This document shows, piece by piece, positions 2,061 through 21,658 of a DNA stretch of 33,462 bases; the first letter of the stretch is position 1, and each line of letters starts with the position of its first letter. The stretch is taken from the IMG/VR virus record IMGVR_UViG_3300034190_000284, positions 1 to 33,462 of that record; one strand, written 5' to 3'. The notes under the pieces were generated by a model. It ran no database searches and had not been told where the DNA came from. It saw nothing but the letters and a program-made list of their open reading frames with translations. The stretch comes from a virus. The translations under genes and the position numbers were made by a program.

Positions 2061-3239
2061 TTATTTAGTATTTTTCATAGCCAATTTTTGAGAGGTCGCT
2101 TCCATCACAGCTTCCCAGCGACTACCATACTTTTTCTTAAACATTGATTCGTCTAACTTAGGATCAACGTCAACCTTTTCTTTTTTGCCCGAATCAATAT
2201 CCTTATCATCTTTCTTCTTAGTAGCTTTCTTTTCAGCTGGCGTATCGTCAGCCTTCTTATCAGCTGGCTTATCGTCCTTATCGTCAGACTTCTCATCTTC
2301 ATCTGAACCTTCATCAGCATTCTCATCTTTAGAAACAGCTTTAGATATTGCTTTACGTCTCTTATGTAAGAACTCGTCAGATGAGTCAACATCACCGTCA
2401 TTGTCGATGTCTTTATCTTTACGATCCTTGAACTTCTTCTTCACGGCTTTGGGTTGAACCTTGTCAAGACCTTCGCCATCGTCAGACTTATCATTAGTGT
2501 TATCTTCGCCCAGCATCTCAGCGCCTTGTTCAATAACATCATTCTCGGACTGATTGTCAATTTCAACGCTTTCAGATTGACCAGTTACTACGCGATTAAC
2601 AGCATCAACTAATGACTGGGAAATGCCATACTTGGTGTATGATTCAGATTCATTCATATCTACTACTCCATTCTTTTCTTCAAGTTCAACAGATTCTTTA
2701 GTAACCTTGAACGAACTCGCAGGTGCTGCTTTAAGTGAAGGGTCGCCCCAAAGTTTCATTGCTTTATTAATCGCTTCGAATGCTGAACGAGCTTTAACTT
2801 TCTTCTCGTCACCTTTCTTGAGCTTATTGACTGGCTTGGCTACTGTTACTGTCCAATCGGCGACTGCTTCGTCAAGAGCTTCGAATACTTCATTGATATC
2901 AAGGTCTACAGACTCGTCCATACCTTTCATGAACTCAGCAACATCTTTCTCTTTCATACCAATCTTCTTGGCGATCTGCGCGGCAGTCATACCTTTCTTA
3001 ACCATGGCATGAAACTCTTTCATTTTGCCTTCGTTCAAATCAACTTCTTCATTAGCATTCTTCATCATATCAGCCAATTTAGCCAGAATGTCACGATCTT
3101 TCTTCGAGATATTCTTTAGCTTTTTATCACTAGCCATCTTTTCTAGTGACGCAGCATACGCTTTAGTTGACTCGTCAAGGTCAACCGCGTTATCTGTAGG
3201 GGTGTACATCTCACGGATGACGGTGTTCAATGTTTTCAT
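2061..3239 (-). CDS. Acidic prohead core/scaffold-like protein with an EF-hand-like loop
   Basis: This 392-residue, highly charged protein has low complexity towards its end (runs of D, E, K and S). Near residue 280 it carries DIDNDGDVDSSDEFLHKRR, in which Asp occupies positions 1, 3, 5, 9 and 12 and Gly position 6 of a canonical EF-hand calcium loop. Short motifs recur: EEVDLNE|G, ESVDLDINE|V, EALDE|A and ESVELEE|K, which resemble T4 gp21 prohead-protease sites ([LI]-x-E followed by A, G or S). I remember similar proteins from marine T4-like phages as core or scaffold proteins. A scaffold that is processed during head maturation fits the composition, the repeated sites and the position among head-type genes. 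This is inference; no catalytic function is seen. Confidence 0.6.
   Translation of the reverse strand: MKTLNTVIREMYTPTDNAVDLDESTKAYAASLEKMASDKKLKNISKKDRDILAKLADMMKNANEEVDLNEGKMKEFHAMVKKGMTAAQIAKKIGMKEKDVAEFMKGMDESVDLDINEVFEALDEAVADWTVTVAKPVNKLKKGDEKKVKARSAFEAINKAMKLWGDPSLKAAPASSFKVTKESVELEEKNGVVDMNESESYTKYGISQSLVDAVNRVVTGQSESVEIDNQSENDVIEQGAEMLGEDNTNDKSDDGEGLDKVQPKAVKKKFKDRKDKDIDNDGDVDSSDEFLHKRRKAISKAVSKDENADEGSDEDEKSDDKDDKPADKKADDTPAEKKATKKKDDKDIDSGKKEKVDVDPKLDESMFKKKYGSRWEAVMEATSQKLAMKNTK
2062..2069 (-). promoter_or_regulatory. Degenerate late promoter candidate (ACTAAATA)
   Basis: The minus strand reads ACTAAATA at 2069-2062, 37 bases before the start at 2025. It overlaps the last codons of the scaffold-like gene, so a coding coincidence is possible. 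Confidence 0.35.
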
Positions 3240-3275
3240 TATTGGTTCCTTTGATTCCTTTAGTATAGCATGTTC

Positions 3276-3283
3276 TATTTAGT
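3276..3283 (-). promoter_or_regulatory. Degenerate late promoter candidate (ACTAAATA)
   Basis: The minus strand reads ACTAAATA at 3283-3276, two mismatches from TATAAATA, 37 bases before the scaffold-like gene start (3239). The same octamer occurs at the same distance before the gene at 1525-2025. Confidence 0.4.
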
Positions 3284-3300
3284 TTATTTGCGACTGGTGT

Positions 3301-3615
3301 TTACCACTTAACCTTATCCGCCCAATACGCAGCTGACATTTTACCTTTGGCGATGTTCTTGCCGTGCCTTGCTTTGAATGACTTGCGCTTTGCCTTCATC
3401 TTATCAGACTCACCCTTCTTAGGGTCGCCAGCAGTTGAAGCGCCTTGCTCACCAAAACGAATAGTCTTAATCTTATCGCCATCTTTAGCTACGACAATGT
3501 GACTCTTCTTTGGGTGGCTTGGCGTTCCCTTTGGCTTGTTGAATCCCGAAACGCCAGCTTTAGCTAAACGAGGATCTTTATCTTTTTCAGTTATGAATTC
3601 TTTGAAATTAAGCAT
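3301..3615 (-). CDS. Small basic protein with capsid-targeting-like N-terminus
   Basis: I place the start at the ATG at 3615, giving 104 residues beginning MLNFKEFITEKDKDPRLAKA. An upstream in-frame start is possible but would lie deep inside the previous gene. The chosen start overlaps the previous stop by 8 bases and has a GGAT-type ribosome site. The N-terminus M-x-x-F-K-E-F-I-T-E resembles the T4 internal-protein leader (MKTYQEFIAEA), which directs proteins into the prohead and is cut after the Glu. The rest is very basic, with PSHPKKSHIVVAKDGDK, then SFKARHGKNIAKGKMSAAYW near the end. I recall the last block as a conserved domain of marine T4-like phages. A DNA-associated internal head protein is likely, but unproven. 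Confidence 0.7.
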   Translation of the reverse strand: MLNFKEFITEKDKDPRLAKAGVSGFNKPKGTPSHPKKSHIVVAKDGDKIKTIRFGEQGASTAGDPKKGESDKMKAKRKSFKARHGKNIAKGKMSAAYWADKVKW

Positions 3616-5464
3616 TAGGAGTATCCTTCTTGTATTTATCCACCAACTTCTTAGTCCCCTCTTCGCCAGCACCACCCTCTTCAGAAATCATTTGCTCAAC
3701 CATAGTCCGCAAAACTCGAGGATTAACTCCATACTGTTTCGCTACAGTCCCAGCATAATACTCATTACCATGACGAACAGACTTACCTGCTTCTTTGGCT
3801 TCTTTTTTCTTACGAGTGATAACTGACTTGAGCACATCAGCTGCAGCCTTATACTTCTTCTTTTGAATAGTCTTTGACTTCAACAGAGCAATATCGTAGC
3901 CAGGAGTGCCTTCATCCATAACCTTTTCCTCATTAATGGATTCTTTCTTAGTCCCCCGAACCTTGTCAGCTAAATCTTTATCAGCTTTGCCCCAAGTACC
4001 TTTGCCTTTAGTGACAAAACTATTAACCCGAGCAAATGCCCATTGCTGTTGGTTTGCTCCTGGGCGGTGACCAGTACGCCATGCTGCCATACCACGGTCA
4101 TATACCTTTTTCAGAATACCGTATGAGATACCAGTCTTATCAGCCTTTTTACGCAAGGATGCTTCAGCTGATTCAGTCAACTCAAACTCTTCTTTCGTTT
4201 CACGGTTCTTAGATCTGGTATCGGCAGTTCTAGCCCGATCCATCATGCGGTCATGTTTCTTAGCGTCAGCAGCCTTCTCTCGTTCAATCTTTGATTTAGC
4301 TTCATCAGACTTAGAGTTCTCGCCGAACATGTCGCGATACTTTTTAGTGTGCTTAGAAGTGCGAGTCTCAGCTCCAGCATCACCAGCATGCTTGTCAGGA
4401 TACGCGCTAGAATCACTCGGATCTTTCTCGGCACCCTTCTGGAACTGTGTATCGCGCTTAGTCTTGGTTGACTTGGCCAAACCGCTGTGATACTTAGCTG
4501 GCTGGCTTCCTTCTCTATCTTTGATCTCTGAATCTTGACGCTCAAATAGCGCATCAAAACTCTCATTCTTTGAGCCGCCTCTTAGTGACTTCAATCTAGC
4601 TATCTCTTTCTTACGAGTGGCAGGTACCAGCTTCTTAGCCAACTTCTGTATCATAGCCGACCTTTTCTGTACTAATCTGTCAACGGCAATCTTATCTCCA
4701 GGTGATAGGTTGGCATAATTCTGCCCCTTCTTACCTGCGACTTTCTTTCTTACTGCTGAGATAGCAGCTTTCTGAGCACGCTTGGCGATTGTCTGAGTAT
4801 CAGCCATTTTCTTTGACTTCATCTTCTTGATACGCTGTAGCTTTGGAGCCAGCTTCTTCATTCGGCGACCAATAGCTTTACGCTGAGATATAGACAGTGG
4901 CTTACGATCTTCATCCAGATCTTCTTTGATTACTGCTCGGATGGTATCGTATATATCTTTAGCATCACGGTCGTTCAGCTTCTTAGGCAAGCCAGTCTTA
5001 AATGTATCAAATTGACCTTCGATTGCCAATGCTCTTAGCTTTGAGGCCGACATACCCTCAACACCAACAGAGTCAGGATCGCGAGCACCAGCTGAACGAA
5101 CATCAATTGAGTCAAACTTAAATGGACCACCGTTGTACTTATTCAATAAACCGGCGAACTCACTAACACGGTCTGATCCAACTACCAGAACAACATCCGT
5201 ATAACCAGACTTCTGTAATTCTTGTAGGATTTGAATTATTGTCTTAGAATTGGTCTGCTCAATTACTTTACCGAATGCCTTGCGGGCAAACCTAATCTTC
5301 TCGGCATAGTTGAGCGGATCTTTCTTGGCGTTTTGTGTGTGAGAAAGAAAGACTTTAGAATCAGCCTTTTCTTTCTTACCAGTGGAGATTACTTTATCGA
5401 CTAGCTTTTGGTGACCGACTGTGGGTGGATTGAGTCTGCCAAATGTAAATACTACTTTCTTCAT
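3608..5464 (-). CDS. NMNAT/cytidylyltransferase-like modular protein with basic tail and DUF5824-like domain
   Basis: This 618-residue modular protein has an N-terminal domain (1-180) that looks like a nucleotidylyltransferase of the NMNAT/cytidylyltransferase fold. It has GRLNPPTVGH at 9-18, corresponding to the (H/T)xGH nucleotide site, VGSDRVSEF at 95-103, and GMSASKLR at 137-144, corresponding to ISxTxxR. Residues 190-295 are extremely basic. Residues 430-500 contain GISYGILKKVYDRGMAAWRT followed by GHRPGANQQQWAFARVNSFV, a block I recall from many marine phage proteins (perhaps DUF5824). Possible prohead-protease sites are FELTE|S (residues 427-432) and DALFE|R (304-309). A TATAAATA late promoter lies 40 bases upstream. 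NAD or phospholipid-precursor synthesis is possible, but the substrate cannot be read. Confidence 0.7.
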   Translation of the reverse strand: MKKVVFTFGRLNPPTVGHQKLVDKVISTGKKEKADSKVFLSHTQNAKKDPLNYAEKIRFARKAFGKVIEQTNSKTIIQILQELQKSGYTDVVLVVGSDRVSEFAGLLNKYNGGPFKFDSIDVRSAGARDPDSVGVEGMSASKLRALAIEGQFDTFKTGLPKKLNDRDAKDIYDTIRAVIKEDLDEDRKPLSISQRKAIGRRMKKLAPKLQRIKKMKSKKMADTQTIAKRAQKAAISAVRKKVAGKKGQNYANLSPGDKIAVDRLVQKRSAMIQKLAKKLVPATRKKEIARLKSLRGGSKNESFDALFERQDSEIKDREGSQPAKYHSGLAKSTKTKRDTQFQKGAEKDPSDSSAYPDKHAGDAGAETRTSKHTKKYRDMFGENSKSDEAKSKIEREKAADAKKHDRMMDRARTADTRSKNRETKEEFELTESAEASLRKKADKTGISYGILKKVYDRGMAAWRTGHRPGANQQQWAFARVNSFVTKGKGTWGKADKDLADKVRGTKKESINEEKVMDEGTPGYDIALLKSKTIQKKKYKAAADVLKSVITRKKKEAKEAGKSVRHGNEYYAGTVAKQYGVNPRVLRTMVEQMISEEGGAGEEGTKKLVDKYKKDTPNA

Positions 5465-5503
5465 ACGTGTTTCCCGTGGGCTTAACGCTATTAATTAAAA
5501 ATC

Positions 5504-5511
5504 TATTTATA
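5504..5511 (-). promoter_or_regulatory. T4-type late promoter (TATAAATA)
   Basis: The minus strand reads TATAAATA at 5511-5504, 40 bases upstream of the NMNAT-like gene start (5464). It lies in the 51-base gap before that gene. Confidence 0.75.
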
Positions 5512-5515
5512 AGAA

Positions 5516-6742
5516 TTACTTTTGCCAACCTTTGATGTAATCATCAGAGAAGTTAGCATGACTGAATTGCATCCTGTTTACTAGCTTGAGTGCGCTACCG
5601 TCATTATCAATGGCAACATAACCTTCTGGGGCAGTTACGATAAACCCATCTTTGGTTCGCAGCAGAGTATCAATATTACTCGCCTGATCCATTTTCTTAA
5701 TGACCAGTTCCTTAGCGTCAATCAAAGCATTCATCATCAAGAAGATGTTCTCTAGATTCTTTACGTTGGCACTAGAAAAGAACTTGAGTATATCATCACG
5801 CTTATCAGTCTGAACCTTCTTGCCTTTAGGAGTACTGCGCTTGTCAGCTTGCTTACCATAAAACTCAGTAATATAGTTGACAAGACCACGGACATGCGAT
5901 TTGACATTGGTTATCTTTTGGCCTGCTCGGACTTTACTATTAAAGTGGGTCTTCACTTTCTGCAACAACTCAGGATTATCTGAAATGCTATTGAGAGTCT
6001 TGGCGTCCAGCTTACTGAATATCTTACCAGCCGTAGATATGAACTTAGTAACTTCTTTGTTTTCTTTCTCAGTAAATGTAGCTGAGCCAGAAACGTCAGT
6101 AAACATAGCATCAACTGACCAGACGTCTTTAGTCTTTTTCAGTTTAGTTGCTATTTCCTTACCGAATGATGCCTTCATATTCTCGAACGAAGTACCAGTG
6201 TAAACAGTATGCCAAACAATACCGATCTTAGCTGACCGAATTGCCCTGCCCATTTCTGATTTACTAGGAACTGCATATACAATTGTATTAGGGTGGAACG
6301 TAGTAACTTTCTCGCCGTCATGAGTTTCGGACTTTAGATCGCTCTTACTGAACAAGAAGTCACCCTGAATGACGCCATTGATACCCAAAGCAGGTAAATG
6401 CTTCAGCGCCAGCTTCAGCTTAACTGCCAAATCACCCTTAGTGTCGGCATCTACTTCGTCAGGGGTTTTGTAAACTTTCGGGTTCTTAGCGAATACGCCT
6501 TTCTTCGCAACAAAGAATCTGCCATCACTAGGATCCTGACCAGCAAATATAGCAGGAGCGCCGTCCCACTTAACAGTAGTAGAAACGCCCCGACTACTAC
6601 TGCCAGACAGCATGTCACGCATAGATCTAAGCAAATTAATAGCTTGTCTCGCACCAGTTACTCCTCCATTAAGAACAGCATCTTCCAAATGTTCCATATG
6701 CGTGTTCTTGTCTTCAATTAAAAATGTATTAAACTTCTTCAT
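5516..6742 (-). CDS. Nucleotidyltransferase/ligase-like protein with capsid-targeting-like N-terminus
   Basis: I choose the ATG at 6742, which begins MKKFNTFLIEDKN (408 residues) and has better ribosome-site spacing; the ATG at 6748 adds only two residues. The N-terminus resembles the capsid-targeting leaders of neighbouring genes. VKWDGAPAIFAG at about 57-68 matches motif I of ATP-dependent DNA/RNA ligases and capping enzymes (K-x-D-G, with Lys58 the presumed AMP acceptor). VIQGDFLFSK resembles motif III, NTIVYAVP motif IIIa, KDGFIVTAPEG motif IV and ALKLVNR motif V, in the right order. I recall this as a widespread marine T4-like phage family of unknown function (perhaps DUF6267). The ligase fold is an inference from motifs. 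It overlaps the preceding gene by 14 bases. Confidence 0.65.
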   Translation of the reverse strand: MKKFNTFLIEDKNTHMEHLEDAVLNGGVTGARQAINLLRSMRDMLSGSSSRGVSTTVKWDGAPAIFAGQDPSDGRFFVAKKGVFAKNPKVYKTPDEVDADTKGDLAVKLKLALKHLPALGINGVIQGDFLFSKSDLKSETHDGEKVTTFHPNTIVYAVPSKSEMGRAIRSAKIGIVWHTVYTGTSFENMKASFGKEIATKLKKTKDVWSVDAMFTDVSGSATFTEKENKEVTKFISTAGKIFSKLDAKTLNSISDNPELLQKVKTHFNSKVRAGQKITNVKSHVRGLVNYITEFYGKQADKRSTPKGKKVQTDKRDDILKFFSSANVKNLENIFLMMNALIDAKELVIKKMDQASNIDTLLRTKDGFIVTAPEGYVAIDNDGSALKLVNRMQFSHANFSDDYIKGWQK

Positions 6743-7022
6743 GGTCATCTATCCATCTTTGAACTTCTGCCTTAGCAGTAGAAACATTCTTATATCCGGT
6801 TACGGGATGTCTCGGGGTGTCTCCGCTCTTATCAAAGATCGTGGGTAACACTTTCTGACTACCGTCCTTATTGAACTTCATAGAGTCCATACCTGACAAA
6901 CGAATCTCGAACTTACCATCAGAGGTAACGTGTTTGAACACTTTCTTTCTACCATCATAACCGTCAGGAACTTTCTTCCATTTGACCTTCCCTTCAGTAA
7001 TGTATTCTTTGAAACTTTTCAT
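6729..7022 (-). CDS. Small protein with capsid-targeting-like N-terminus
   Basis: The start is taken at the ATG at 7022 (97 residues, MKSFKEYITEGKVKWKKVPD), because it overlaps the previous stop as ATGA and is preceded by AAGG at good spacing; an upstream extension would lie inside the kinase-like gene. The first ten residues MKSFKEYITE|G match the T4 leader pattern MKTYQEFIAE|A closely, including Glu followed by a small residue. The remainder (KKVFKHVTSDGKFEIRLSGM, then KAEVQRWIDDHEEV at the end) is small and soluble, with no known domain that I recognise. Its place in a run of four such genes suggests a head-internal protein. No function is evident. Confidence 0.7.
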   Translation of the reverse strand: MKSFKEYITEGKVKWKKVPDGYDGRKKVFKHVTSDGKFEIRLSGMDSMKFNKDGSQKVLPTIFDKSGDTPRHPVTGYKNVSTAKAEVQRWIDDHEEV

Positions 7023-7711
7023 TTCTTTGCCTTTTGTGTGGTTATCCACTTCTGTGCTATAGAGTTTTCGGGTGGCTTACCTGCCCATCTCTGGATATCC
7101 TTATAAGCCTCCAATGTAGATCGCTCAATATCTGCCCCTTCAGAGTTATCAATAATGATCATGCGGTTACGGAATAACCCTTGAAACTTACCAATATTCT
7201 TTTGTACTTCCTTCCAAAGTTTAACAACCAGCTGTTGAGGAATTGACCTTGGTCTCTTGTCGTTTCTCATAATCGAAGTATCTAGATCAGTATTAACAAA
7301 TATCATTTTTACAGCATAACCTAGTTTGCGGAGGTCGTCAACTTGTTTTTTAATTTTACCGTAATCTTTACCAGTCCCATCAATTACCAACCCCAACCTG
7401 CCATCCAGCGCCAGCTGCATTTTCCTGCCAGTGATCGCCTTTGCGCCAGCACGAATCTTCTGCCCTTGGGCTGAGGCAATATCTTCTGGGCTAGTTGAAA
7501 GTCCTGCTTTCTTAAGACCAGCTTCGAACGCATCGTCAGAATTGATGAGTTTAAACCCGAGAGCCTGCAGAGCAGTCTTACCCGCAACAAACGACTTACC
7601 AGATCCTGGGCCACCTGCTAGGAATACAGCTTTAAATATCGAGGGGTCATTCACGCCTTCGGTCAGCTCGTGAACAATCTCATTATCTTTGTATTGATTG
7701 AAATTTAACAT
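7019..7711 (-). CDS. P-loop kinase (zeta-toxin/polynucleotide-kinase-like) with capsid-targeting-like N-terminus
   Basis: The start is placed at the ATG at 7711 (230 residues, MLNFNQYKDNEIVHELTEGV), which is preceded by AAGGATACCC; a farther ATG at 7732 has no good ribosome site. The Walker A motif GGPGSGKS is at 33-40, followed by INSDDAFEAGLKK, then LVIDGTGKDYGKIKKQVDDL (a Walker B-like strand with DGT) and RNDKRPRSIPQQLVVKLWKE (a lid-like Arg-rich helix). This layout is typical of zeta-toxin, polynucleotide kinase and similar small-molecule or nucleic-acid kinases. ELTE|G at 15-19 is a candidate prohead-protease site. Its neighbour is the ligase-like protein, so a nucleic-acid end-healing pair is one possibility. 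The substrate is unknown. Confidence 0.7.
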   Translation of the reverse strand: MLNFNQYKDNEIVHELTEGVNDPSIFKAVFLAGGPGSGKSFVAGKTALQALGFKLINSDDAFEAGLKKAGLSTSPEDIASAQGQKIRAGAKAITGRKMQLALDGRLGLVIDGTGKDYGKIKKQVDDLRKLGYAVKMIFVNTDLDTSIMRNDKRPRSIPQQLVVKLWKEVQKNIGKFQGLFRNRMIIIDNSEGADIERSTLEAYKDIQRWAGKPPENSIAQKWITTQKAKK

Positions 7712-7742
7712 GGGTATCCTTTGTACTCTCATAAGTTTAAAC

Positions 7743-9077
7743 TTAGTATAACTTACAGTGAATTGATGAGAAGTCGTTAGTCTTTGTGCTTGAGTAGTAG
7801 CAGCTCTTCAATATGTCTGGGTTACTCTCTAGCAATATCTCGAGATAATACGTCAGAAACGCGCCAGCTTTCAATGCTATTTCTGAATCGGGGAATGCTG
7901 ATACTTTATCAACTACAACCGAATTCCTCAGAAGTCTAGGCAGAGTTGTGTTCAAATACTTCATCGGATCATTCAGAATCTTAGTCTTATCTGAAGGGAT
8001 GTCATATCCATTATCTATTGCCAGTTTGGGGAATAACTGCGCAGAAACTGCACCGAGCTGAACAGCTGCGCCCTTTTGTCTACCCTCAAGGTAGATCCGA
8101 ATATCTGAATTCTTAGATACGGTCGCCGCCTTATATCCAACCCTCAGGTTGAATCCTTTAATGTTACCATCAGTTTCAAGTATGAAGTTCTTTTGGAATG
8201 GGTCAAATAATACGCGACTCACCTTAACATCAACGTCAGGCAAATCTAGAGTAGAAACAGTTTGGAACTTTCCTGCCTTACCCTTCGACACTTTCTTTAA
8301 TGATACGCCAACAATCTCTTTGCTCTCATACTTATCACTCAACCAAGCATTATACTCAAGGAGAGAAGTAATCCCCTTGGTCTGCTTTATAACTTGGCTT
8401 TTGTTAAGTGACATAATCCAGACGTCAGATGGGTTCCAGTTATCCTTCAAATCGCTCAAGCCGAACTTCTTTGCTAGAACGAACAGTATGTTAGAGTCGT
8501 TTTTCTCTGAATCAAGGTAAATTTTATGCTTAGCAAATCCAGAACCCATGTTCGAAGTGAACGCCCGATACTGCTGCTCAAAGTTATGCATCCACTCATC
8601 ACTAAATGGATAGCCAACCGCATCAGATATACCCTTGATGTCAATTTTCTTATTCTTGAACATAGATGAGAAGTATGCGATAGTGCCATTCTCTTGCTCA
8701 GCAGTTGACGGTATAGTTACCGCTTCACCCTTCCGTGGTAGTTTGCCAGTTCCGCGAATACCGCCCGAGGGTGTCAGCGCGATATTAACTAACTTAGATG
8801 TGACATACTTATCACCAGAAGGGGTGAAGCCATAACCGACCAAAGACTTGTGTTTAACTAATTTGGGGATAGCTGATTTGTCTGTAACCTTAATCACTAA
8901 TCTTGCATTTGCCTTGCGGAAATCATACTTCGGCTCTATATAGATATTCTCAGCGTCAGCAACTTTCTCTAAGCGATTAAGAAACCTCTTCAATTCAGGG
9001 TTCATAGCTGTAGGCAAATGTTCAAAACCAAGCCACTGTTTAGTCGCTTCGGTCAAGAACTCATTAAAATTATGCAT
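7743..9077 (-). CDS. Large late protein of unknown function with capsid-targeting-like N-terminus
   Basis: This 444-residue soluble protein begins MHNFNEFLTEATKQWLGFEH. FLTE|A fits the T4 prohead-protease rule ([LI]-x-E followed by Ala) and is the best match to the T4 leader in this window. The rest has mixed alpha/beta character, without a motif I recognise. There are YGFTPSGDKYVTSKLVNIAL, a VDVKVSRVLFDPFQKNFILE segment and a Cys/Ser-rich end (SCYYSSTKTNDFSSIHCKLY). It is the first gene after the gp41 boundary hairpin and has a T4-type late promoter octamer (TATAAATA) 41 bases upstream, so it is probably expressed late. It could be an internal head protein; nothing identifies its activity. 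Confidence 0.7.
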   Translation of the reverse strand: MHNFNEFLTEATKQWLGFEHLPTAMNPELKRFLNRLEKVADAENIYIEPKYDFRKANARLVIKVTDKSAIPKLVKHKSLVGYGFTPSGDKYVTSKLVNIALTPSGGIRGTGKLPRKGEAVTIPSTAEQENGTIAYFSSMFKNKKIDIKGISDAVGYPFSDEWMHNFEQQYRAFTSNMGSGFAKHKIYLDSEKNDSNILFVLAKKFGLSDLKDNWNPSDVWIMSLNKSQVIKQTKGITSLLEYNAWLSDKYESKEIVGVSLKKVSKGKAGKFQTVSTLDLPDVDVKVSRVLFDPFQKNFILETDGNIKGFNLRVGYKAATVSKNSDIRIYLEGRQKGAAVQLGAVSAQLFPKLAIDNGYDIPSDKTKILNDPMKYLNTTLPRLLRNSVVVDKVSAFPDSEIALKAGAFLTYYLEILLESNPDILKSCYYSSTKTNDFSSIHCKLY

Positions 9078-9228: not shown

Positions 9229-10650
9229 TTAGATTTTCAATCCACTGAAATCTTTTCGGCCAGCTTTCTTGGTCATCCATTGCATCGAATCATCTTCCTT
9301 CATGCGCTTACCGTATCCCGTCTGATCAAATACTGGACCATTATCGACAACATCCTCTTGAGCCTGTTGCTCAACATCGTACAGTCGCATCTTAGCTCGG
9401 TCAATGCCAACCATGAACCTTTTGTACTGTCCTGGGTCACCATAACGATTCTTTAATTGCTTGATCATTATTTGCCCCATCTCATCAAGTTCTTCAGTAA
9501 CGATCAGCGCCGCCATAAAGTCAGCTGTAGCTGGCAAACCAAACGACTCAGATGTATCAGTCAAGTCAATATCACTGCTACCATAACCGCTTCGGGTTGT
9601 CTGAGTAGCTGTCACAATAGGTACGTTTTGCTCACCGGCCAACCCACGTATCTCTTCAGCAATTGCTTTAACCAAAGTGTAGGAGTTATGATTACCGCCA
9701 TTGCGGAGGCGGGATGACATACAAATATTAAGATAATCAATATAGATGATATCAGGTATAAATGACTTCTTCAGCTTCAACTCATTGAGAAGGTGACGGA
9801 AATGCCCAGTACCAGCTGACGCAGTAGGATATTCTTTCACGACCAACTTACCTGACGTCTTACCCTTTACCCGCGCAATCTTCTTATCATACATGGTCTT
9901 TGACAAAGTCTTCAGGTCGTCGAGTGTCACATTGAGTAGATTGGCATCGATACGCTCCGCAATCTTTTCCTCAGCCATTTCCATTGTAATGTAGAGAACG
10001 TTCTTACCGTCCATCATATTAGCCGAAGCCATATGGCACATAGCCAATGACTTACCTGCGCCAGTACCAGCCATCAAAACATTCAAAGTCTTACGAGGCA
10101 AACCACCACCAGTAATCTTATTCATGTACTCAAGGTCAAATGGAACCTTTTCTTCTTTACGATGGTAGAAGTCAAACCGCTCGCTGGCATCTTCAATAAA
10201 GTCGTGACCAACATTAGGGTCAAAAGAAACGGCAAGAGCATCAGACAGTAACTCGGGAATAGCACCCTTATCCCTGTCTTCACTCCCATTCGAGTCTATA
10301 ATGCCAATGCTTTCCATAATAGCATTATAGACTGCTTTCTCTTGGCAAAACTTTTCGGTTGTCTTTAACAGCCAATCCTGATCTTCAGCCTGCTGGATAT
10401 CGAGTTCGGAAATATACTTACCACATTCCTCAAACTCTTTATCCGTCAGGTTGCTGACTGCATCTAGCTCAATTGTTAATGCTTCTTTAGTCGGAAGCGA
10501 GTTATACTTCTCAATAAAGTAATCAATTTGTTGATAGACCGTTTTCTCAACACGGTCTGCGAAATACTCTGGCTTTAGATATGGAAGCGTTCTTCTCGCA
10601 AATGCTTCATCATTCAGCAGGTGTCTCAGTATTAGTGTCTCTGTCGCCAT
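9229..10650 (-). CDS. 41: Replicative DNA helicase gp41 (DnaB/RecA-fold)
   Basis: This 473-residue protein is almost exactly the length of T4 gp41 (475). The helicase domain starts near residue 165 with PFDLEYMNKITGGGLPRKTL, then Walker A AGTGAGKS, Walker B-type DIIYIDYLNICM, and a conserved VTATQTTRSGYGSSDIDLTD loop with Gln/Thr sensor and DNA-contacting loop features of the DnaB family. The enzyme unwinds DNA 5' to 3' on the lagging strand and works with the primase and the polymerase holoenzyme. It starts 41 bases inside the end of the upstream gene, so translation is coupled to it. It closes the early replication block; an inverted repeat follows its stop. Confidence 0.95.
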   Translation of the reverse strand: MATETLILRHLLNDEAFARRTLPYLKPEYFADRVEKTVYQQIDYFIEKYNSLPTKEALTIELDAVSNLTDKEFEECGKYISELDIQQAEDQDWLLKTTEKFCQEKAVYNAIMESIGIIDSNGSEDRDKGAIPELLSDALAVSFDPNVGHDFIEDASERFDFYHRKEEKVPFDLEYMNKITGGGLPRKTLNVLMAGTGAGKSLAMCHMASANMMDGKNVLYITMEMAEEKIAERIDANLLNVTLDDLKTLSKTMYDKKIARVKGKTSGKLVVKEYPTASAGTGHFRHLLNELKLKKSFIPDIIYIDYLNICMSSRLRNGGNHNSYTLVKAIAEEIRGLAGEQNVPIVTATQTTRSGYGSSDIDLTDTSESFGLPATADFMAALIVTEELDEMGQIMIKQLKNRYGDPGQYKRFMVGIDRAKMRLYDVEQQAQEDVVDNGPVFDQTGYGKRMKEDDSMQWMTKKAGRKDFSGLKI

Positions 10651-12803: not shown

Positions 12804-13910
12804 CTATCCGAAAAAGCCTTCAAGAGTAGACTTTCTCTCATCGCTCCAGCCAACTGACTCGAGTATAATTTTAAGTGGGTCAAGAAACGCTTTGTTAAAC
12901 TGCGTATCATAATCAATGTAACCGCTCAGATCAAACTCTTTGGGCAATCCATGCATGACACTTATCACATTATGTTGTGAGGGGTTTGGTTTATTTAGGT
13001 AGCAGAACTTGATCTTTTCGCCATCCTTGATCACCTCGTACTTCTTAGTCAACTTATGCTTCCGGAGTAAATGATTGTACACTAGACCACCTCGAACATG
13101 GATAGGTGTACTCTTAGGAATATTCAGATCGGTAGCATTGCCATCATAATATTTACCAAAGTCAGATACTGACCGTGGAAAGGCAACTTCCTCAAACGTC
13201 ATCTTCTCGAACTTAGTTCTAAAATCGGAGATAAACGCTTGGGCAGTTTCCTCATCCTCATTCATGATAATGTTAATGGCAGCTTCAAGAGAATCCCTGC
13301 ATGATTGCGGAGTAGATGACTTTACTGTTTCAATACCCATCATCTTCAGCTTAGGAGTAGAGTAACGAACGCCCTCATTATCATAGACGTTCATCATGTA
13401 TCTTTTCTTAGCAGTCCAGATTGCCTTATCCGCAATAACCTCACGCTTCATAAACATCTTCTGGTCGAACGAATTGGTTATTTGTGCCAGTTCTTCATAA
13501 CTTTTATCAATAAAAGGTTCCAGCTTCTCGCTTGCAACTGTGTCCAAGAAGTTGACGATTTTGACAGGGTCACTTCCCTCTTCAAAGCATTTACCCACAA
13601 GTGCATCGAAATTAACGTAAATCGAGTCTGTATCCGATGCGATAACATAGTCAGCTTCGGATGTTTGCAGTATCTTATTAAGGTATTCATTTACTCTCCT
13701 CTCAATCCAACGAATGGATAATTGCCCTGATAGCGTGATGGCCTCAGCTTTCCTCACATCGAAGAACCTGAAATATTTGTTTCCAACAGCGCCATATGCT
13801 GAGTTTAGCTGAACCTTCTTAGCAAGCTGAAGATTCTTGTACTTGCTTATATCTTTGATCACTTGCTTCTTGCGCTCAAGAAGGTCAGCCTTACTCATGT
13901 TTTCAATCAT
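12804..13910 (-). CDS. 43B: DNA polymerase gp43, C-terminal part (gp43B)
   Basis: This 368-residue protein is the C-terminal part of a family B polymerase. It begins at MIENMSKADL, in the fingers region, and carries motif B (KKVQLNSAYGAVGN at 31-44, with the conserved K, N and YG) and motif C (ASDTDSIYV at 91-99, with catalytic Asp93 and Asp95). The KAIWTAKKRYMMNVYDNEG block matches T4 gp43. The terminus DERKSTLEGFFG resembles the gp45 clamp-binding tail of T4 gp43. It lacks motif A, which lies in gp43A, so neither half can be active alone and the two must assemble. Its start overlaps the stop of the small intervening gene (TAATG). Total length of the halves is 849 residues, against 898 in T4. 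Confidence 0.95.
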   Translation of the reverse strand: MIENMSKADLLERKKQVIKDISKYKNLQLAKKVQLNSAYGAVGNKYFRFFDVRKAEAITLSGQLSIRWIERRVNEYLNKILQTSEADYVIASDTDSIYVNFDALVGKCFEEGSDPVKIVNFLDTVASEKLEPFIDKSYEELAQITNSFDQKMFMKREVIADKAIWTAKKRYMMNVYDNEGVRYSTPKLKMMGIETVKSSTPQSCRDSLEAAINIIMNEDEETAQAFISDFRTKFEKMTFEEVAFPRSVSDFGKYYDGNATDLNIPKSTPIHVRGGLVYNHLLRKHKLTKKYEVIKDGEKIKFCYLNKPNPSQHNVISVMHGLPKEFDLSGYIDYDTQFNKAFLDPLKIILESVGWSDERKSTLEGFFG

Positions 13911-14194
13911 TAAAGAATAATCCCACTTGTCGCAGAAAGATACGCCTTCTCAATATCAGCATTAGTTTCTGTCACAAAGACAATACCACCAGAGAAGAAC
14001 TCAATCATGGGAGTATCCTTTACGCCAGTCTGACATACGCCATATGCAAAACCCATACCGCCATCCTTGCCTGAGACCAACATACGCGGATCTTTAATCT
14101 TCACCCCAGTAGGACTTCGATCTTCAAACTTACCAACAAACTCACCAGTCAGTGTTACTAGAGATACTACATCACCTTTCTTCATATTGTTCAT
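13910..14194 (-). CDS. Small beta-barrel-like protein between the two gp43 halves
   Basis: This 94-residue soluble protein starts MNNMKKGDVVSLVTLTGEFV and continues GKFEDRSPTGVKIKDPRMLV, then FVTETNADIEKAYLSATSGI. The KKGDVVSLVTLTGE opening resembles SH3/Sm-like small beta-barrels. I recall similar proteins from marine T4-like phages, usually near gp43. It lies in the polymerase gene with start and stop codons overlapping both halves (ATGA with gp43A, TAATG with gp43B). It lacks intein splice residues and homing-endonuclease motifs, so it is not the intervening MobE-type gene reported in some other split-gp43 phages. It could help assemble the halves, but that is speculation. Confidence 0.8.
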   Translation of the reverse strand: MNNMKKGDVVSLVTLTGEFVGKFEDRSPTGVKIKDPRMLVSGKDGGMGFAYGVCQTGVKDTPMIEFFSGGIVFVTETNADIEKAYLSATSGIIL

Positions 14195-15636
14195 ATTGCT
14201 TTCAACCTATTGTTAATTAATTCTAGTTCAGCTTCGGATTCAAGCATCTTCTTCTTGTATCCTTTACGCTCAGTGTACATACGTTCCATCATTTCAGGCA
14301 AGAACCCTTGCTTATCCCTTCGGAAGAAGTGACCATTGGCCGCCATACAGCGGTCAGTTGTCGACCTCACTTTCCGGTCAATGATGTCATCAATCGTTAC
14401 ATCTTCATACTCACCTTCAACAAAAGTTTCGGGGGAGATATTATACTGCATAATCAAATGCGGATACAGAGAATTCAAATCGAAACTCATAACCCACTTG
14501 TGCATACCAACTTGCGGATCCTTAACGTATGCCCCAGCAAAAGTTGAATCCTTAAATGATTCTTCCTTCGGTGGGATAACTATCCGCTTGTTTATCAGGT
14601 AATTATGTATAAGAACATCCCACATCGTTACCTGAGTGAATGTGTCATTGTAGTTTACCTTAGCATCATAAGCAATAGCCAAAGCCATCTCAATCAGCTT
14701 CATCTTATCTTCAAGTTTATCAATCAACTCCACATCTTTAATATTATAGTCGATAAACTTCTGATAGTCAAGTTTATGGAGTTGATTTAGATTACCAACG
14801 TCAGAGTAATCAATCTTCCTCTCGCCCAATTCTACGTGAGCAATATGATCAAGGCGATAAGATGCCTGTTGAGAATATGTAAACTTCTTATACAGCTGCA
14901 GGTAATCTAGCGTAGCAATACCAGTCAGCTCCCACAATATTTCTTGGCGATTGAATTTAGTAATCTCGCGCTTCTTCAACCAACGGAATGGGGACAGCCG
15001 CTTTACTTCCTCATTACCAAGAAGTTTGCCAATACGATTGACCAGATATGGGATATCGAATCCTTCAATATTCCAACCAGTAATGATATCGGGGTCAAGG
15101 TTCTGCCAGAAGTTTAAGAAGATAGACAATAGACGCTTCTCGTCTTTGGCGTCAATATAGTGAACATCTTCCCGAGACTTTTTATACTCGCCAACACCAA
15201 CAACCCAATAGAACTTCCTGCCTTCCTTCATATGAGAAACACAAATAGCTGTTACAGGCTGGTTAGCCAGTTCCGGCAAGGGGAACCCATCCTCAGAGCC
15301 AACCTCAATATCTATGTTTGCTACCTTGATCTGTTCAACATCATAATCGTTCCCGAACTTCTCATTCAGGTAAACATACGCCCATTTGGTTGAGCCATAG
15401 ATTTTAAAGTTATCAACCGCCTCATACTTCTTAGAAAACTGAGATGCTTCGCGGATATCGCCCATCTTAACAGGCTCGACATACTCACCACTCAAAGTTT
15501 TATACTCGGACTCCTTTCGAGAAGGGATGTATAAAGTTGGATTATATTGTTCCTGCTTTACAAATCGCTTGCCGTTTTTGTACCCGCGAGTATTGACCAT
15601 GTTGCCTCGGACGTGAGCATGAGTGTAGAAGTTCAA
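14191..15636 (-). CDS. 43A: DNA polymerase gp43, N-terminal part (gp43A)
   Basis: This 481-residue protein carries the exonuclease and first palm elements of a family B polymerase. Exo I is NIDIEVGSEDGF (Asp109, Glu111), Exo II GWNIEGFDIPYL (Asp194), Exo III YNIKDVELIDKL (Asp301) and motif A SFDLNSLYPHLIMQ (Asp386). It ends in a basic helix (RKGYKKKMLESEAELELINN), at the fingers tip, just before motif B. The start is TTG at 15636, giving MNFYTHAHVRGN, which lines up with the usual FYT...RGN start of marine T4-like gp43; the TTG overlaps the previous TGA, and AAGGG sits 8 bases upstream. A typical gp43 has both parts in one chain; here a stop separates them. Confidence 0.93.
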   Translation of the reverse strand: MNFYTHAHVRGNMVNTRGYKNGKRFVKQEQYNPTLYIPSRKESEYKTLSGEYVEPVKMGDIREASQFSKKYEAVDNFKIYGSTKWAYVYLNEKFGNDYDVEQIKVANIDIEVGSEDGFPLPELANQPVTAICVSHMKEGRKFYWVVGVGEYKKSREDVHYIDAKDEKRLLSIFLNFWQNLDPDIITGWNIEGFDIPYLVNRIGKLLGNEEVKRLSPFRWLKKREITKFNRQEILWELTGIATLDYLQLYKKFTYSQQASYRLDHIAHVELGERKIDYSDVGNLNQLHKLDYQKFIDYNIKDVELIDKLEDKMKLIEMALAIAYDAKVNYNDTFTQVTMWDVLIHNYLINKRIVIPPKEESFKDSTFAGAYVKDPQVGMHKWVMSFDLNSLYPHLIMQYNISPETFVEGEYEDVTIDDIIDRKVRSTTDRCMAANGHFFRRDKQGFLPEMMERMYTERKGYKKKMLESEAELELINNRLKAI

Positions 15637-17241: not shown

Positions 17242-19062
17242 TTATAACTTTGGAGAATAGATGGTTATGAGTTCTTCTTTACCTTTGACTTTGATGTCGC
17301 CTATTGGTCTCGATTCAATAGTGGTAAGTTGGTCCATTGTTGCGCGAGAGTAGATGGTCTTGTATTCGAGATACTCTCCTCGAGCTGCTGTGGCTTCGAG
17401 TCTGGCGGCAAGGTTAACTGCGTCTCCGATGACCGAATAGTCAAACCGTGACTCACTACCCATATTACCAACAATGCAAGTACCTGTATTGATGCCAGTT
17501 CCAACATTGATGGGGGGTAAACCCTGTTCTTGATATCGTCGTCTAAGTTCATTAGTCTTAATCTCTATCTCTATTCCTGACTTAACTGCCAAGTCGGCAT
17601 GGTTCTCGCACGGCAACGGCGCATTCCAAAATGCCATAATACAGTCGCCCATGTATTTATCTATCGTGCCGCCATTGTTTAGAATTATTTTCGTCATGGC
17701 GTCTAAATATTCGTTGATCAAATCAACCAAACCTTCAGGGTCATCATTGTTTTTGTAGTGCTCAGATATAGGTGTGAATCCTACGATGTCCATAAAGAGG
17801 AAACTCATCTCTTTACGCTCACCGCCCAACTTCAATAGAGAGGGATCTTTCTGCAGAAGATACACCATCTCCGGAGATAAATAAGTACCGAACTGCTTTT
17901 TAATTTGCTCTTTCTGCTTATATGTAGTATAATACCTATTGAAAGAACTTTGCCCAAATACAAGGATCCCTGCTAGTGAAGCCCAGACAACGTCTAAGAA
18001 CAAATACCCAGAATGCCAAACGTAGAAACCTGATGACATTACAGATAAGAGCAAGCCAAAAGACACTATCACCGCAGCTATTGTGGGAAGCGTGTAGACC
18101 GATACAAGGATACCTAGACACACTATCAAAAGAATCGCAAGCTCAGCTGCTACAGACCAGTCGGGTCGAAGTATTTGAACGCCTGAGATTAAGGTCTGAA
18201 TCTGATGACCTTGAACTTCGTGGGGATACATTGCACCCACTGGGGTTGGTACTGGATTAGCGACACCTTCAGCTGTAACCCCAAGTATCACAACCTTTCC
18301 TTCGGGTATCGGATCAAGTATTGATTGCGTTTTAAATTTATTCCAAAACGCTACTGGTAACTCGGAGGTTGGCTGTGTGATTAGCGGATCTTGCCTTCCC
18401 AACCTTATCCACTCAATTCCCAAATCATTCTTCTTAACAGTATATGACGGTTCTCCCAAAAACACCCTCACCGCATCAAGACCTAATGATGGGTATGGTT
18501 GCCCATTAATCCCAACTATAAGGGGAACTCTTCTTAGAACTCCAGTCGGTTGGTCTAGCTCCGCGGAAACAGCGCCCACACCCATAGCATATTGCGCAAG
18601 TTCGGGGATGGGTGTAAGCAGACCGGTGTAATTGACTAGAGTTTCTGGACCAGCGCCGAATGTAGAAACATTAGCATAAATGCCGAGATCATCTGTAGTA
18701 GTTTGGCGCGTAGGTGCGCTTGCTAATATTACTGCCTTCTGACTTAGCGAGGCGGATAGTTCTTGATCCCCCGCAAATCTATCTTCCTCTGACCATATCA
18801 TTGTTGATACGAGTAAGGAATTATTCGGTGCTTGATTTATGTACTTCGCGAGTGTTTGTCTTGGCCAGGGATATTGCCCTTCTTTCCTGATTGCTTCTTC
18901 ATCAATGTTCACGAGAACGATATCGTCAACTTCAATGATTTCATGACTGCGCTGTAGATAGTCGTAGTAGATATATTCTACTGCCTTAACTGTGTCGTAC
19001 TGTGAAACCTTTAAGAATGCGAGTAAGAATATTATAGGAAGAACCGAATACCACTTGGTCAT
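17242..19062 (-). CDS. CHASE2-domain class III adenylate cyclase, membrane bound
   Basis: The ATG at 19062 gives 606 residues and overlaps the curlin-B stop (TGATG); a TTG at 19107 is less likely. An N-terminal TM helix (about 5-19) is followed by a periplasmic CHASE2 sensor (about 22-300, with VNIDEEAIRKEGQYPWPR and the late PEGKVVILGVTAEGV strand), then three TM helices (about 304-372) and a class III cyclase domain (417-600). The metal aspartates are Asp425 (FMDIVGFT) and Asp473 (YMGDCIMAFW), adenine selectors Lys469 and Asp541, and transition-state residues Asn550 and Arg554 (VNLAARLE). All are intact, so it should make cAMP from ATP. FecR/CHASE2 partners are known in bacteria. It is the last gene of the curli-like operon. 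Confidence 0.92.
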   Translation of the reverse strand: MTKWYSVLPIIFLLAFLKVSQYDTVKAVEYIYYDYLQRSHEIIEVDDIVLVNIDEEAIRKEGQYPWPRQTLAKYINQAPNNSLLVSTMIWSEEDRFAGDQELSASLSQKAVILASAPTRQTTTDDLGIYANVSTFGAGPETLVNYTGLLTPIPELAQYAMGVGAVSAELDQPTGVLRRVPLIVGINGQPYPSLGLDAVRVFLGEPSYTVKKNDLGIEWIRLGRQDPLITQPTSELPVAFWNKFKTQSILDPIPEGKVVILGVTAEGVANPVPTPVGAMYPHEVQGHQIQTLISGVQILRPDWSVAAELAILLIVCLGILVSVYTLPTIAAVIVSFGLLLSVMSSGFYVWHSGYLFLDVVWASLAGILVFGQSSFNRYYTTYKQKEQIKKQFGTYLSPEMVYLLQKDPSLLKLGGERKEMSFLFMDIVGFTPISEHYKNNDDPEGLVDLINEYLDAMTKIILNNGGTIDKYMGDCIMAFWNAPLPCENHADLAVKSGIEIEIKTNELRRRYQEQGLPPINVGTGINTGTCIVGNMGSESRFDYSVIGDAVNLAARLEATAARGEYLEYKTIYSRATMDQLTTIESRPIGDIKVKGKEELITIYSPKL

Positions 19063-19838
19063 CAGTTTTGAGTCACTGATATGCCACAGCCACCAACTGT
19101 AATGCAATTTTGCTGTATCGAAAACGATTGGCCAGTAACGCCGCTTTGTGTGAGGGATATGTCAGTTCCGTATTGGCCTGTTATCAATATATCTGCGTGG
19201 TGATCGCCATGGCCTTTCTGAACAATTGATGCGATATTGTCATCACTAATAATACCAACCTCTAGGAACTGAGAACCACCTTCTTTCTGTTTAATGTGAA
19301 CGTCATTATCATCACCTTCGATCATGACATACGCTTCATGCCCAGAGGAATTGTTATTAGTTCTCTGAGAAACTTTAACTTCGTTGTAGTCGCCGTCGAT
19401 AGCAATACCAACAAACTGATCACCATGCTCATCATAATCTTCAATGAAGGTTCCGTTGGCATCAAGATCATATCCCTGACCAACCATTACAGTATTTCCG
19501 GTTCCTTCTAGTTCAGCTATCGACACTGCTTGGCCTTCAGTACCATACTGTCTATTCTGTTTAATGATGAGCGTGGTATTATCACCGGAGAGTAAACCAC
19601 TGAAATTCCAGACAGTGCCAGAACTATCTGTGTGAGTTACCTGCTCAGTAAGTACCTCATTGAGATATCCAAATTGAGAGATCTCTAAATTCAGGTTATC
19701 ACCACCCACCTGATCAATGGCTATCAAATTATCAGATAGCGCATTTGTTGACAAGATCATGAATATGACCAGAAGGAAACAAAACATTAACAGAACGTCA
19801 ACCACCCACCCTATAAAACCAAATATTACTCGAAACAT
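19062..19838 (-). CDS. Curlin-like amyloid repeat protein B
   Basis: This 258-residue protein has a hydrophobic N-terminal segment (residues 7-30) that acts as a long signal peptide or anchor, with a possible cut after STNALS. The rest is built of repeats of roughly 20-25 residues with the curlin pattern (alternating hydrophobics, then x-Q-x-G-x-x-N or G-D-x-N): LIAIDQVGGDNLNLEISQFG, IAIDGDYNEVKVSQR, VMIEGDDNDVHIKQK, DILITGQYGTDISLTQ. The final residues SVTQN and the CITVGGC pair are notable. Like CsgA/CsgB it lacks other known domains. It starts one base after the FecR stop (TAA-T-ATG). It could be the nucleator or an alternative fibre subunit. Secretion through CsgG is inferred. Confidence 0.82.
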   Translation of the reverse strand: MFRVIFGFIGWVVDVLLMFCFLLVIFMILSTNALSDNLIAIDQVGGDNLNLEISQFGYLNEVLTEQVTHTDSSGTVWNFSGLLSGDNTTLIIKQNRQYGTEGQAVSIAELEGTGNTVMVGQGYDLDANGTFIEDYDEHGDQFVGIAIDGDYNEVKVSQRTNNNSSGHEAYVMIEGDDNDVHIKQKEGGSQFLEVGIISDDNIASIVQKGHGDHHADILITGQYGTDISLTQSGVTGQSFSIQQNCITVGGCGISVTQN

Positions 19839-19839
19839 A

Positions 19840-20982
19840 TTAATTGCCCTGCCGTATTATAACACGTATATCTTCACCGCCATTCGCAGTTATGATGCCA
19901 TTGTACCCATCGACTTCCGTTTCAACTCTAATAGAACCGCCGTTAGAAAAGTTTAAACTAATAACCCCACCAGCGTCCCTGTAAAAAACCAACCCGTCAT
20001 CTTCAGCGAAGATAGCATACTGGCTATCACTATTTAGTCCCCATCTAGCACCCTTCAGAATCGTTGCACCGCCTGCGTTTTGTTGGACGTCTTCAAGTGC
20101 CTCAAGAGTTCTCACTAATTCTTCGACAATATCTAACAAATCAACCAAAAGTTCTGAGTCAAGAGCATTATAATCCAGCCTGCTGGTAACGTCACCATCT
20201 TCGCTGGCGTAGTCGTCAATATCTTTTTCCAATTCATCGAACGCAAGATAGTCAGCATCGAGCGAACCATAGTCATCACTGTCAAGTTCCTGTAACTGTT
20301 CTTCCATTACTTGCCGAACTTCTTTCGGAGGGTTGACAATGAACATATTATCAATTACAGTTGGCGTTATTCCTTCTATCACAACTGTTCTGGTTGGTGC
20401 TGTAGAAATACTTGATACCATGGTAGCAGCATATGCTTCGGATAGAGTTATTTCCCCAGCTTCGTTTGATACTACAATCTCACCTGAAGGATTGCCATAT
20501 TCATCTGGCAGTAATATTACCAGTGACCTACCAAGCTCGTCAGTAGTTGTCGTGAAGTCAGTTCCGCGAACGGCGATCGTAGCTGTTGGGGTAGAGATTT
20601 CTATGTTCTTTTTGTTTACCATGCCCAACCGGCCAGACGCAAATCGGGCTGTACCCATGGCCATCTTCATAACCATTTTTGATTTACTTGGATCGGGATC
20701 GTAGTAGACTTTGTCGATGTAGACAACGCTGTGCTCAATCAGGGATAGTTCCGCTTCATCAGCAAACTTAATGAGCATCCTACCTTTGGCAGTTTTGGCT
20801 GTATCGTTGAGTTGTATTTCGGTGCCGACTTGAGCGGCAATATCTGAGGAGGATCTTTCTAAACTGTTAACGCCTGTGGATTCAATAACCCCACCGATGG
20901 AAGAAGCGTATGCCACCCCCACCAGTAGGTGAATATTAACTGTCGTTAGAAGTATCTTTCTGATTAATCTGGATAGTAGCAT
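19840..20982 (-). CDS. FecR-domain protein (periplasmic sensor/carrier)
   Basis: This 380-residue protein has a signal peptide (residues 1-26, ending VGVAYA|SS) and a FecR domain at about 27-150: GTEIQLNDTAKTAKGRMLIK, then EAELSLIEHSVVYIDKVYYD and ISTPTATIAVRGTDF, with the usual closing TP.ATI..RGTDF. A long acidic helical stretch (about 225-300) and a C-terminal beta region (RWGLNSDSQYAIFAEDDGLV onward) follow. FecR domains usually signal or scaffold in the periplasm. In bacteria, such proteins are often found next to CHASE2 cyclases. Here it lies between two curlin-like genes. The start ATG overlaps the curlin-A end by 47 bases and no other Met precedes the signal peptide. The role as sensor or subunit partner is inference. 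Confidence 0.85.
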   Translation of the reverse strand: MLLSRLIRKILLTTVNIHLLVGVAYASSIGGVIESTGVNSLERSSSDIAAQVGTEIQLNDTAKTAKGRMLIKFADEAELSLIEHSVVYIDKVYYDPDPSKSKMVMKMAMGTARFASGRLGMVNKKNIEISTPTATIAVRGTDFTTTTDELGRSLVILLPDEYGNPSGEIVVSNEAGEITLSEAYAATMVSSISTAPTRTVVIEGITPTVIDNMFIVNPPKEVRQVMEEQLQELDSDDYGSLDADYLAFDELEKDIDDYASEDGDVTSRLDYNALDSELLVDLLDIVEELVRTLEALEDVQQNAGGATILKGARWGLNSDSQYAIFAEDDGLVFYRDAGGVISLNFSNGGSIRVETEVDGYNGIITANGGEDIRVIIRQGN

Positions 20983-21658
20983 TGTCAGAAGTAATGTCCA
21001 ATGTGATTATACCCTTACAGGTTGAGATCCCAACAGCACAGGAACCGCTTAACTGATTAATATCAATATCCGCATTATCACCATCAAATATTACTGTCTG
21101 CTCTTGATAGAACCCATCATTCTGTAAGCTGACCAGGTCGTTACTGTCACCAGTTATATCCCAGTTCCATATAACATCATCAGTTTCGATATCAACATCA
21201 AACGTATTACTTGTACCAAGGATGTTTAGATCAAAATCTAATCTTTCAGAACTTGCCACCTGACCTTGATCCAGATCCATGACGTTATAGTCGCCCAAGA
21301 TTTTGACGTCCATCGTGGTTGTATCGGTAGAACCAATATACCCCAAATTCCAATCCCAGGAATTTGAATCACCAGTCCATTCCATATTGTATGTAGAGTT
21401 ATTAGAAACAACCACGCCATACAACAAGTTACTGTTACCGAGTTGATCAATATCAAAGGTCAACCCAGACCCTGTAATGGGCATTGCTGATGACGTTACA
21501 GAGAAATCGTCACCACCTATCTTGTTACCATAGCCAACTTGATCGATATAGATTGTTAATATATCACCGCTTTGTAATAAGTTAATCTCATTATCATCAG
21601 AGGCGACCGCGAATCCGGCCATAGCTAATCCAGCCAGTCCTACTAAGTACCTATTCAT
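20936..21658 (-). CDS. Curlin-like amyloid repeat protein A
   Basis: This 240-residue protein has a signal peptide (MNRYLVGLAGLAMAGFAVAS, cut after about residue 20). The mature part has about eight repeats of a curlin-type unit with alternating hydrophobics and a G-x-x-N turn: IDQVGYGNKI, FDIDQLGNSNLLYG, WTGDSNSWDW, VKILGDYNVMDLDQ, LNILGTSNTFDVD, DITGDSNDLVSL, and DITSDNATIQINQ near the end. Some repeats keep the Q-x-G-x-x-N of CsgA/CsgB; others have lost the Gln. Two cysteines lie near the C-terminus (SCAVGISTCKG), like the pair in curlin-B. Its start overlaps the csgG stop by 8 bases. It is probably the substrate of CsgG. Confidence 0.85.
   Translation of the reverse strand: MNRYLVGLAGLAMAGFAVASDDNEINLLQSGDILTIYIDQVGYGNKIGGDDFSVTSSAMPITGSGLTFDIDQLGNSNLLYGVVVSNNSTYNMEWTGDSNSWDWNLGYIGSTDTTTMDVKILGDYNVMDLDQGQVASSERLDFDLNILGTSNTFDVDIETDDVIWNWDITGDSNDLVSLQNDGFYQEQTVIFDGDNADIDINQLSGSCAVGISTCKGIITLDITSDNATIQINQKDTSNDS

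Follow-up and report, generated by a model that had tools for sequence, protein, structure and literature searches.

A probable T4-type capsid-targeting leader on a block of enzyme and small-domain genes in a marine myophage points to the probable loading of enzyme kits into phage heads

Why should proteins with unrelated bodies, encoded in one block of a phage genome, begin with the same type of short leader? We were interested in this question for a 33,462-nucleotide stretch of DNA (positions 1 to 33,462 of IMG/VR virus record IMGVR_UViG_3300034190_000284; the whole stretch is called the window here), a fragment of a T4-like marine myophage with its genes on the minus strand. Its block 2061-9077, downstream of a gp41-type helicase gene (9229-10650), contains five genes with such N-termini, which an earlier note had likened to the leader of the T4 internal proteins, MKTYQEFIAE/A (the slash marks a known or predicted cut). 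By its sequence features, the leader system of the window belongs to the T4 capsid-targeting system. The leader is very probably a T4-type capsid-targeting sequence (CTS), with cargo that would be freed in the head by a gp21-type cut and ejected with the DNA, and phages of this type probably load enzyme kits into their heads. This reading is supported by the match to the T4 residues, by the protease and the capsid maturation site of relatives, by virion data of relatives and by leaderless homologues; cleavage and virion presence of the window's own proteins, and their injection into the host, are what we infer.

All five N-termini were confirmed in the translations of the window genes, each on the minus strand. 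MHNFNEFLTE (9048-9077, gene 7743-9077), with a predicted cut before Ala, precedes a body (7743-9047) with a weak match to phrog_1462 and no sequence match in Pfam, NCBIfam or PDB; in 16 homologues the Glu of this leader is invariant and its F and L are near-invariant. The extended leader MLNFNQYKDNEIVHELTE (7658-7711), with a predicted cut before Gly, opens the gene 7019-7711, and the kinase announced for this block was indeed found there, as a P-loop body of the Zeta_toxin / AAA_33 type (7019-7657; Pfam/PHROG assignment). MKSFKEYITE (6993-7022, gene 6729-7022), likewise with a predicted cut before Gly, carries the small body KVKWKKVPDGYDG... (6729-6992), a recurrent bead. MKKFNTFLIE (6713-6742), then Asp, opens the DUF6267 gene 5516-6742, in which another ATG lies two codons upstream of the leader start, and MLNFKEFITE (3586-3615), then Lys, opens the gene 3301-3615, whose start is the ATG at 3615 within a longer GTG-started frame and whose phrog_7595 body (3301-3585) has leaderless homologues starting at about the same residue. 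The strict motif M-x2-F-x2-[FY]-[LI]-x-E is matched exactly by four of these five genes, which are also the only matches among the 50 gene calls of the window; the kinase has a longer version, with LTE at residues 16-18 instead of 8-10. Positions 4 and 7 of the window leaders are F or Y, and Ala or Gly directly follows the Glu in three of the five (A, G and G), as had been noted. The set had also been called neighbouring, but it is not contiguous, as a leaderless cytidyltransferase gene (3608-5464) lies between the DUF6267 gene and 3301-3615.

For T4 it has been established that head entry requires no more than the ten N-terminal residues of IPIII, that residues 4 and 7 of the CTS serve targeting and residues 8 and 10 processing, and that gp21 cuts after L/I-x-E (PMC9026906). 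In the T4 sequences, MKTYQEFIAE/A is present on two internal proteins and MAKINELLRE/S on gp24. The window leaders match the T4 CTS at the experimentally established positions 4, 7, 8 and 10, except for the kinase with its longer spacer before LTE. A Peptidase_S77 gene, the gp21 homologue whose presence was to be checked, was found in 6/6 complete relatives searched. Furthermore, gp23 of C48C1, Melnitz, HTVC008M and DLP6 shows FLTE/T, FLSE/A, FLGE/I or LLGE/A at the T4 maturation position, so that the capsid maturation site (FL-x-E or LL-x-E) ends like the leader in the capsid proteins of four relatives. With T4 IPI, IPII and IPIII (Mullaney and Black; PMC9026906), the window system shares a 10-residue N-terminal leader with aromatic residues at 4 and 7, L/I at 8 and Glu at 10, unrelated bodies behind it and a gp21-type protease, here in the relatives. 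It differs in what is carried: its cargo, encoded in a cluster between gp41 and gp61, comprises numerous enzymes and small domains from about 30 body families, fused multi-site polyproteins among them, whereas the T4 internal proteins are three small proteins encoded elsewhere in the genome.

By analogy, the leader would dock the cargo on the prohead core via the aromatic residues 4 and 7 during head assembly, a cut after Glu10 (L/I-x-E) by the prohead protease (gp21, S77 family) would release the cargo inside the head, and the freed cargo would be ejected together with the DNA. The block between the gp41 helicase and gp61 primase genes would be a cargo locus with freely swapped domains, each behind a protease site (a CTS leader of its own, or an L-x-E within a fused polyprotein), and gp21 would separate such polyproteins into pieces at the internal sites.

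The wider leader search was performed with 160 IMG/VR loci, 80 around relatives of DUF6267 and 80 around relatives of the kinase, in which the leader recurs, and with whole phage genomes. In the loci, 115 of 2,110 distinct genes start with the pattern M-x2-[FYW]-x2-[hydrophobic]-[ILVM]-x-E, compared to a mean of 1.3 and a maximum of 5 in 200 shuffles of the N-termini, by which a chance origin was rejected; with the E required at residue 9, 11 or 12 instead, 14, 14 and 6 matches were obtained. As the loci were selected through two leader families and alternative start codons were resolved toward the motif, the count of 115 is generous, and family counts weigh more than gene counts. The leader is found on 30 body clusters without mutual blastp similarity, in agreement with the unrelated bodies described for the window. 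Although the pattern permitted other residues, F stands at position 4 in 106/112 and F or Y at position 7 in 102/112, and Ala is 3.8-fold enriched directly after the Glu. At the level of genomes, nine T4-type phages, of the kind that bears S77, and the window together gave the tight motif in 29 of 2,130 gene calls, compared to 0 of 535 for seven phages in which S77 was not detected (p 0.002). Two of the latter seven are partial, S77 was not directly searched in S-SM1, S-SCSM1, S-SZBM1 and S-CREM2, and some of the 29 are false matches that start from an internal Met codon (C48C1 19371, Melnitz 139731, S-SCSM1 79458, S-SZBM1 4195).

Homologues of the same bodies served as natural controls, as the leader or site is missing from them in the seven phages without detected S77. 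In ICBM2, ct3Oc712, D274 and S-CBS2, the protein with the body of 3301-3615 has no leader and begins near KDPRLAK, and the site preceding DUF5824 is missing in HTVC202P, HTVC111P and DSL-LC01. Leader variants are present on 65/73 IMG/VR orthologues of DUF6267 and on none of the cyanophage orthologues, which start with MAKNTHLEHLED or MSKNTHLEHLED, compared to ...ITE/QKNTHMTHIED in leader versions. These comparisons support the leader as a clean add-on to the bodies. A conserved Glu that is simply part of the domain fold was rejected as a general explanation, since it is missing from homologues in phages where no gp21 homologue was detected; this rejection rests on the non-kinase bodies, the kinase comparison having no protease-negative homologue. 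In the Agrobacterium jumbo phage Atu_ph07, which has S77, VTE/GVND is kept before the kinase.

The same domains recur either alone behind a leader or within longer proteins, in both cases with phi-x-E (phi, hydrophobic) directly before the domain. For the kinase, phi-x-E directly precedes GVNDP in 49/49 distinct upstream contexts, and a preceding site is found at about 95% of contexts for DUF5824, about 93% for phrog_7595 and nearly all for the cytidyltransferase. In bead-domain proteins, the forward site followed by A/G/S occurs 541 times compared to 285 in reversed and 251 in shuffled sequences; the corresponding values for other proteins of the loci are 1,336, 1,050 and 1,000. In the window, the leaderless fusion 3608-5464 (minus strand) consists of an NMNAT-like cytidyltransferase, a basic region and DUF5824, and has exactly two phi-x-E sites with A/G/S next, FELTE/S (nucleotide 4172) directly before DUF5824 and VMDE/G (nucleotide 3911) in the linker that comes next. 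The gene next to 3301-3615, 2061-3239 (minus strand), encodes an acidic protein with a divergent leader, MKTLNTVIRE then M, eight phi-x-E/[AGS] sites and an EF-hand-like bead, and is a probable cargo polyprotein; the bead, DKDIDNDGDVDSSDEFLHKRRKAISKA, is common to many proteins of related loci. Taken as a whole, the pattern suggests that the fused proteins are protease-cut cargo polyproteins, with gp21 as the presumed protease. Alternatively, the N-terminal leaders may be CTS while the internal L-x-E are uncut acidic linkers and the fused proteins stay whole. We consider this unlikely rather than far-fetched: the linkers are rich in Glu, L-x-E as a motif is weak (4.9 per 1000 amino acids in other locus proteins) and a published N-terminus was not found for any bead, but in about 93-100% of the distinct contexts of the kinase, DUF5824 and phrog_7595 the site has a fixed place before the domain, and the protease-negative phages examined lack it before these domains.

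Cut cargo polyproteins would resemble T4 Alt and the phage polyvalent proteins (Iyer et al. 2017, PMC5512222), which are head-packed multi-domain effector enzymes as well, some of them proteolytically processed. Polyvalent proteins are recognised by domain content, whereas in the window the marks of the cargo are a leader of defined form and regularly placed protease sites; multi-domain fusions that may be delivered at infection were observed in window 3608-5464 and Atu_ph07 gp053. The latter (L278) is a large fusion in which the VTE/GVND kinase is followed by repeated domains behind further phi-x-E sites. Its start is possibly ADP-ribosyltransferase-like, from a YRGM motif seen by eye only, and its gene cluster is rich in virion proteins. 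Head cargo processed by a prohead protease is also described for the ejection proteins of the giant phage SPN3US (PMC7411985, PMC10052503), a likeness by description, not sequence, as SPN3US belongs to another phage group and uses another protease (gp245).

Virion mass spectrometry of cyanophages has detected a cytidylyltransferase/NMNAT in S-SM1 (PMC3037559), S-SCSM1 (PMC9602691), S-SZBM1 (PMC9146016) and S-CREM2 (PMC10665884). This protein (T4-GC190) belongs to the gene family of the window copy and in several phages shares its neighbourhood; the window copy is leaderless and fused to other domains, whereas those of the four cyanophages start with MKKFSAFLNE/A, MKSFLQFLKE/A, MRFRQFIIE/A and MKNFSSFLTE/A respectively. 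A scan of the whole S-CREM2 genome gave three leader genes, for an S-adenosylmethionine (SAM) hydrolase (gp6), an APH-like kinase (gp14) and the cytidylyltransferase (gp154), all three of which are in the virion table. Over the four cyanophages, 6/8 leader genes were detected in virions (chance 6e-4), the denominator of eight resulting from the exclusion, by judgement, of likely false motif matches. In addition, the leaderless DUF6267 of S-SZBM1 is missing from the published virion list of that phage. The cited proteome papers draw no connection between virion entry and the leader. Leader-like stretches found post hoc in the S-CREM2 virion proteins gp12, gp13 and gp15 (LRFASFMAE/A, MKDLHSFLTE/Q and MNFSEFNE/S) were excluded from the count of 6/8; gp12-gp15 are adjacent virion proteins, one of them annotated as a Cas9-like nuclease.

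Several observations weigh against head loading by this leader. In the window, K or D follows the Glu in two of the five leaders, the cytidyltransferase has no leader, and the 33-kb fragment, which stops short of the head genes, does not include the protease gene. The genome of HTVC008M gave zero strict matches, only shortened forms. Two leader proteins of one small family, S-SCSM1_30 and S-SZBM1_191, are absent from the virion lists or marks, and S-SCSM1_90 is annotated as a virion protein and has no leader, so that other entry routes exist. Moreover, the authors of the proteomes note that such enzymes could be lysate contaminants. The small family itself begins MKSFKSFLSE/SVNISGDFNGNLY... 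and is encoded near terminase genes (L271 3812-4129, S-SZBM1; L272 2716-3036, S-SCSM1), without being marked as virion protein. That S-SCSM1_90 belongs to the family of 7743-9077 is only a guess from a WxPxD...GVSLKK pattern.

The leader might also target the prohead core while its proteins are scaffold or core material, degraded or expelled at maturation, and not injected effectors. T4 gp22, gp67 and gp68 are cut up and mostly leave the head, and 2061-3239 with its eight candidate sites resembles such disposable core material. This explanation is nevertheless improbable, as intact kinase, cytidyltransferase and SAM hydrolase domains persist in the finished virions of relatives and the A/G/S sites of the window enzymes lie at leader/domain borders, with one exception near a C-terminus. 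Very little speaks for a docking motif for another assembly (replisome, sliding clamp or tail) unconnected with head entry: the block adjoins the gp41 helicase gene and the binding of replication factors is common among small phage motifs, but the exact T4 CTS determinants and a cut site in common with the capsid protein, the detection of leader proteins in virions and the absence of the leader from the scanned protease-negative phages are contrary to it. Finally, the leader shows some excess of TTT and GAA codons and bodies have evidently been swapped behind a constant 5' end, but a DNA-level feature (a translation-initiation context or short homology for gene shuffling) is scarcely credible and was rejected, as 14 different codons at position 8 and alternative codons at 4, 7 and 10 place the constraint mainly on the protein, and the motif also occurs mid-protein in fusions, remote from start codons.

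With the leader read as a CTS, a broader proposal concerns the coliphages. In the T4 genome the tight motif was found in three genes, the two internal proteins and 61.1. The latter (NC_000866 18966-19130), a conserved open reading frame (ORF) with no function assigned (PMC1524935), has the leader MKTFKEFIKE/D and is flanked by gp41 and gp61, as is the cargo block in the marine relatives. It shares leader and syntenic place with the window cargo and differs in its size of 54 amino acids and in having no enzyme body; gp61.1 is probably an unrecognised capsid-targeted protein. We lean, by a little, towards a general loading code in the marine T4 superfamily, by which any protein behind a CTS or L-x-E site would be head-loaded, freed by gp21 and part of a swappable injected kit, with gp61.1 as the remnant of the cargo locus in coliphages. 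Relative to the T4 CTS, what appears to be new is the multi-enzyme cargo locus with its probable protease-cut polyproteins, and no paper linking the CTS to marine phages was found among the open-access papers searched. For the virion kinases, NMNAT-like enzymes and SAM hydrolases of cyanophages, where cargo or contaminant has been the question, the leader offers a mechanism and a predictor. For some of the most abundant phages of the ocean, it would allow the proteins of early takeover to be predicted from sequence, and the leaders are candidates for natural tags with which to load proteins into heads.

Among the bodies, the one called ligase-like in the earlier note is DUF6267 (PF19782; 5516-6712). 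Its K58 W59 D60 G61 is invariant in 22 sequences and fits the K-x-D-G nucleotidyl-transfer motif. The comparison with T4 RNA ligase RnlB failed, profile-profile alignment (hhalign) giving a probability of 0.1, so that "ligase-like" is kept as a motif observation only; a profile search gave no PDB ligase match, and PDB profile searches with the DUF6267 protein and with 7743-9077 returned nothing useful. DUF6267 is a possible nucleotidyltransferase.

Two other features of the window were observed. A curli-type cluster on the minus strand (17242-23040) contains CsgG (21651-22643), CsgF (22549-23040), a Pfam curlin-repeat protein (19062-19838), FecR (19840-20982) and a CHASE2-adenylate/guanylate cyclase (17242-19107). 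For pelagimyophages CsgF/CsgG have been reported and no CsgA/CsgB (PMC7029224); the curlin-repeat gene 19062-19838 may be the missing curli subunit. The DNA polymerase gp43 is apparently split (12804-15636) into the frames 14191-15636 and 12804-13910, with a 94-amino-acid ORF between them.

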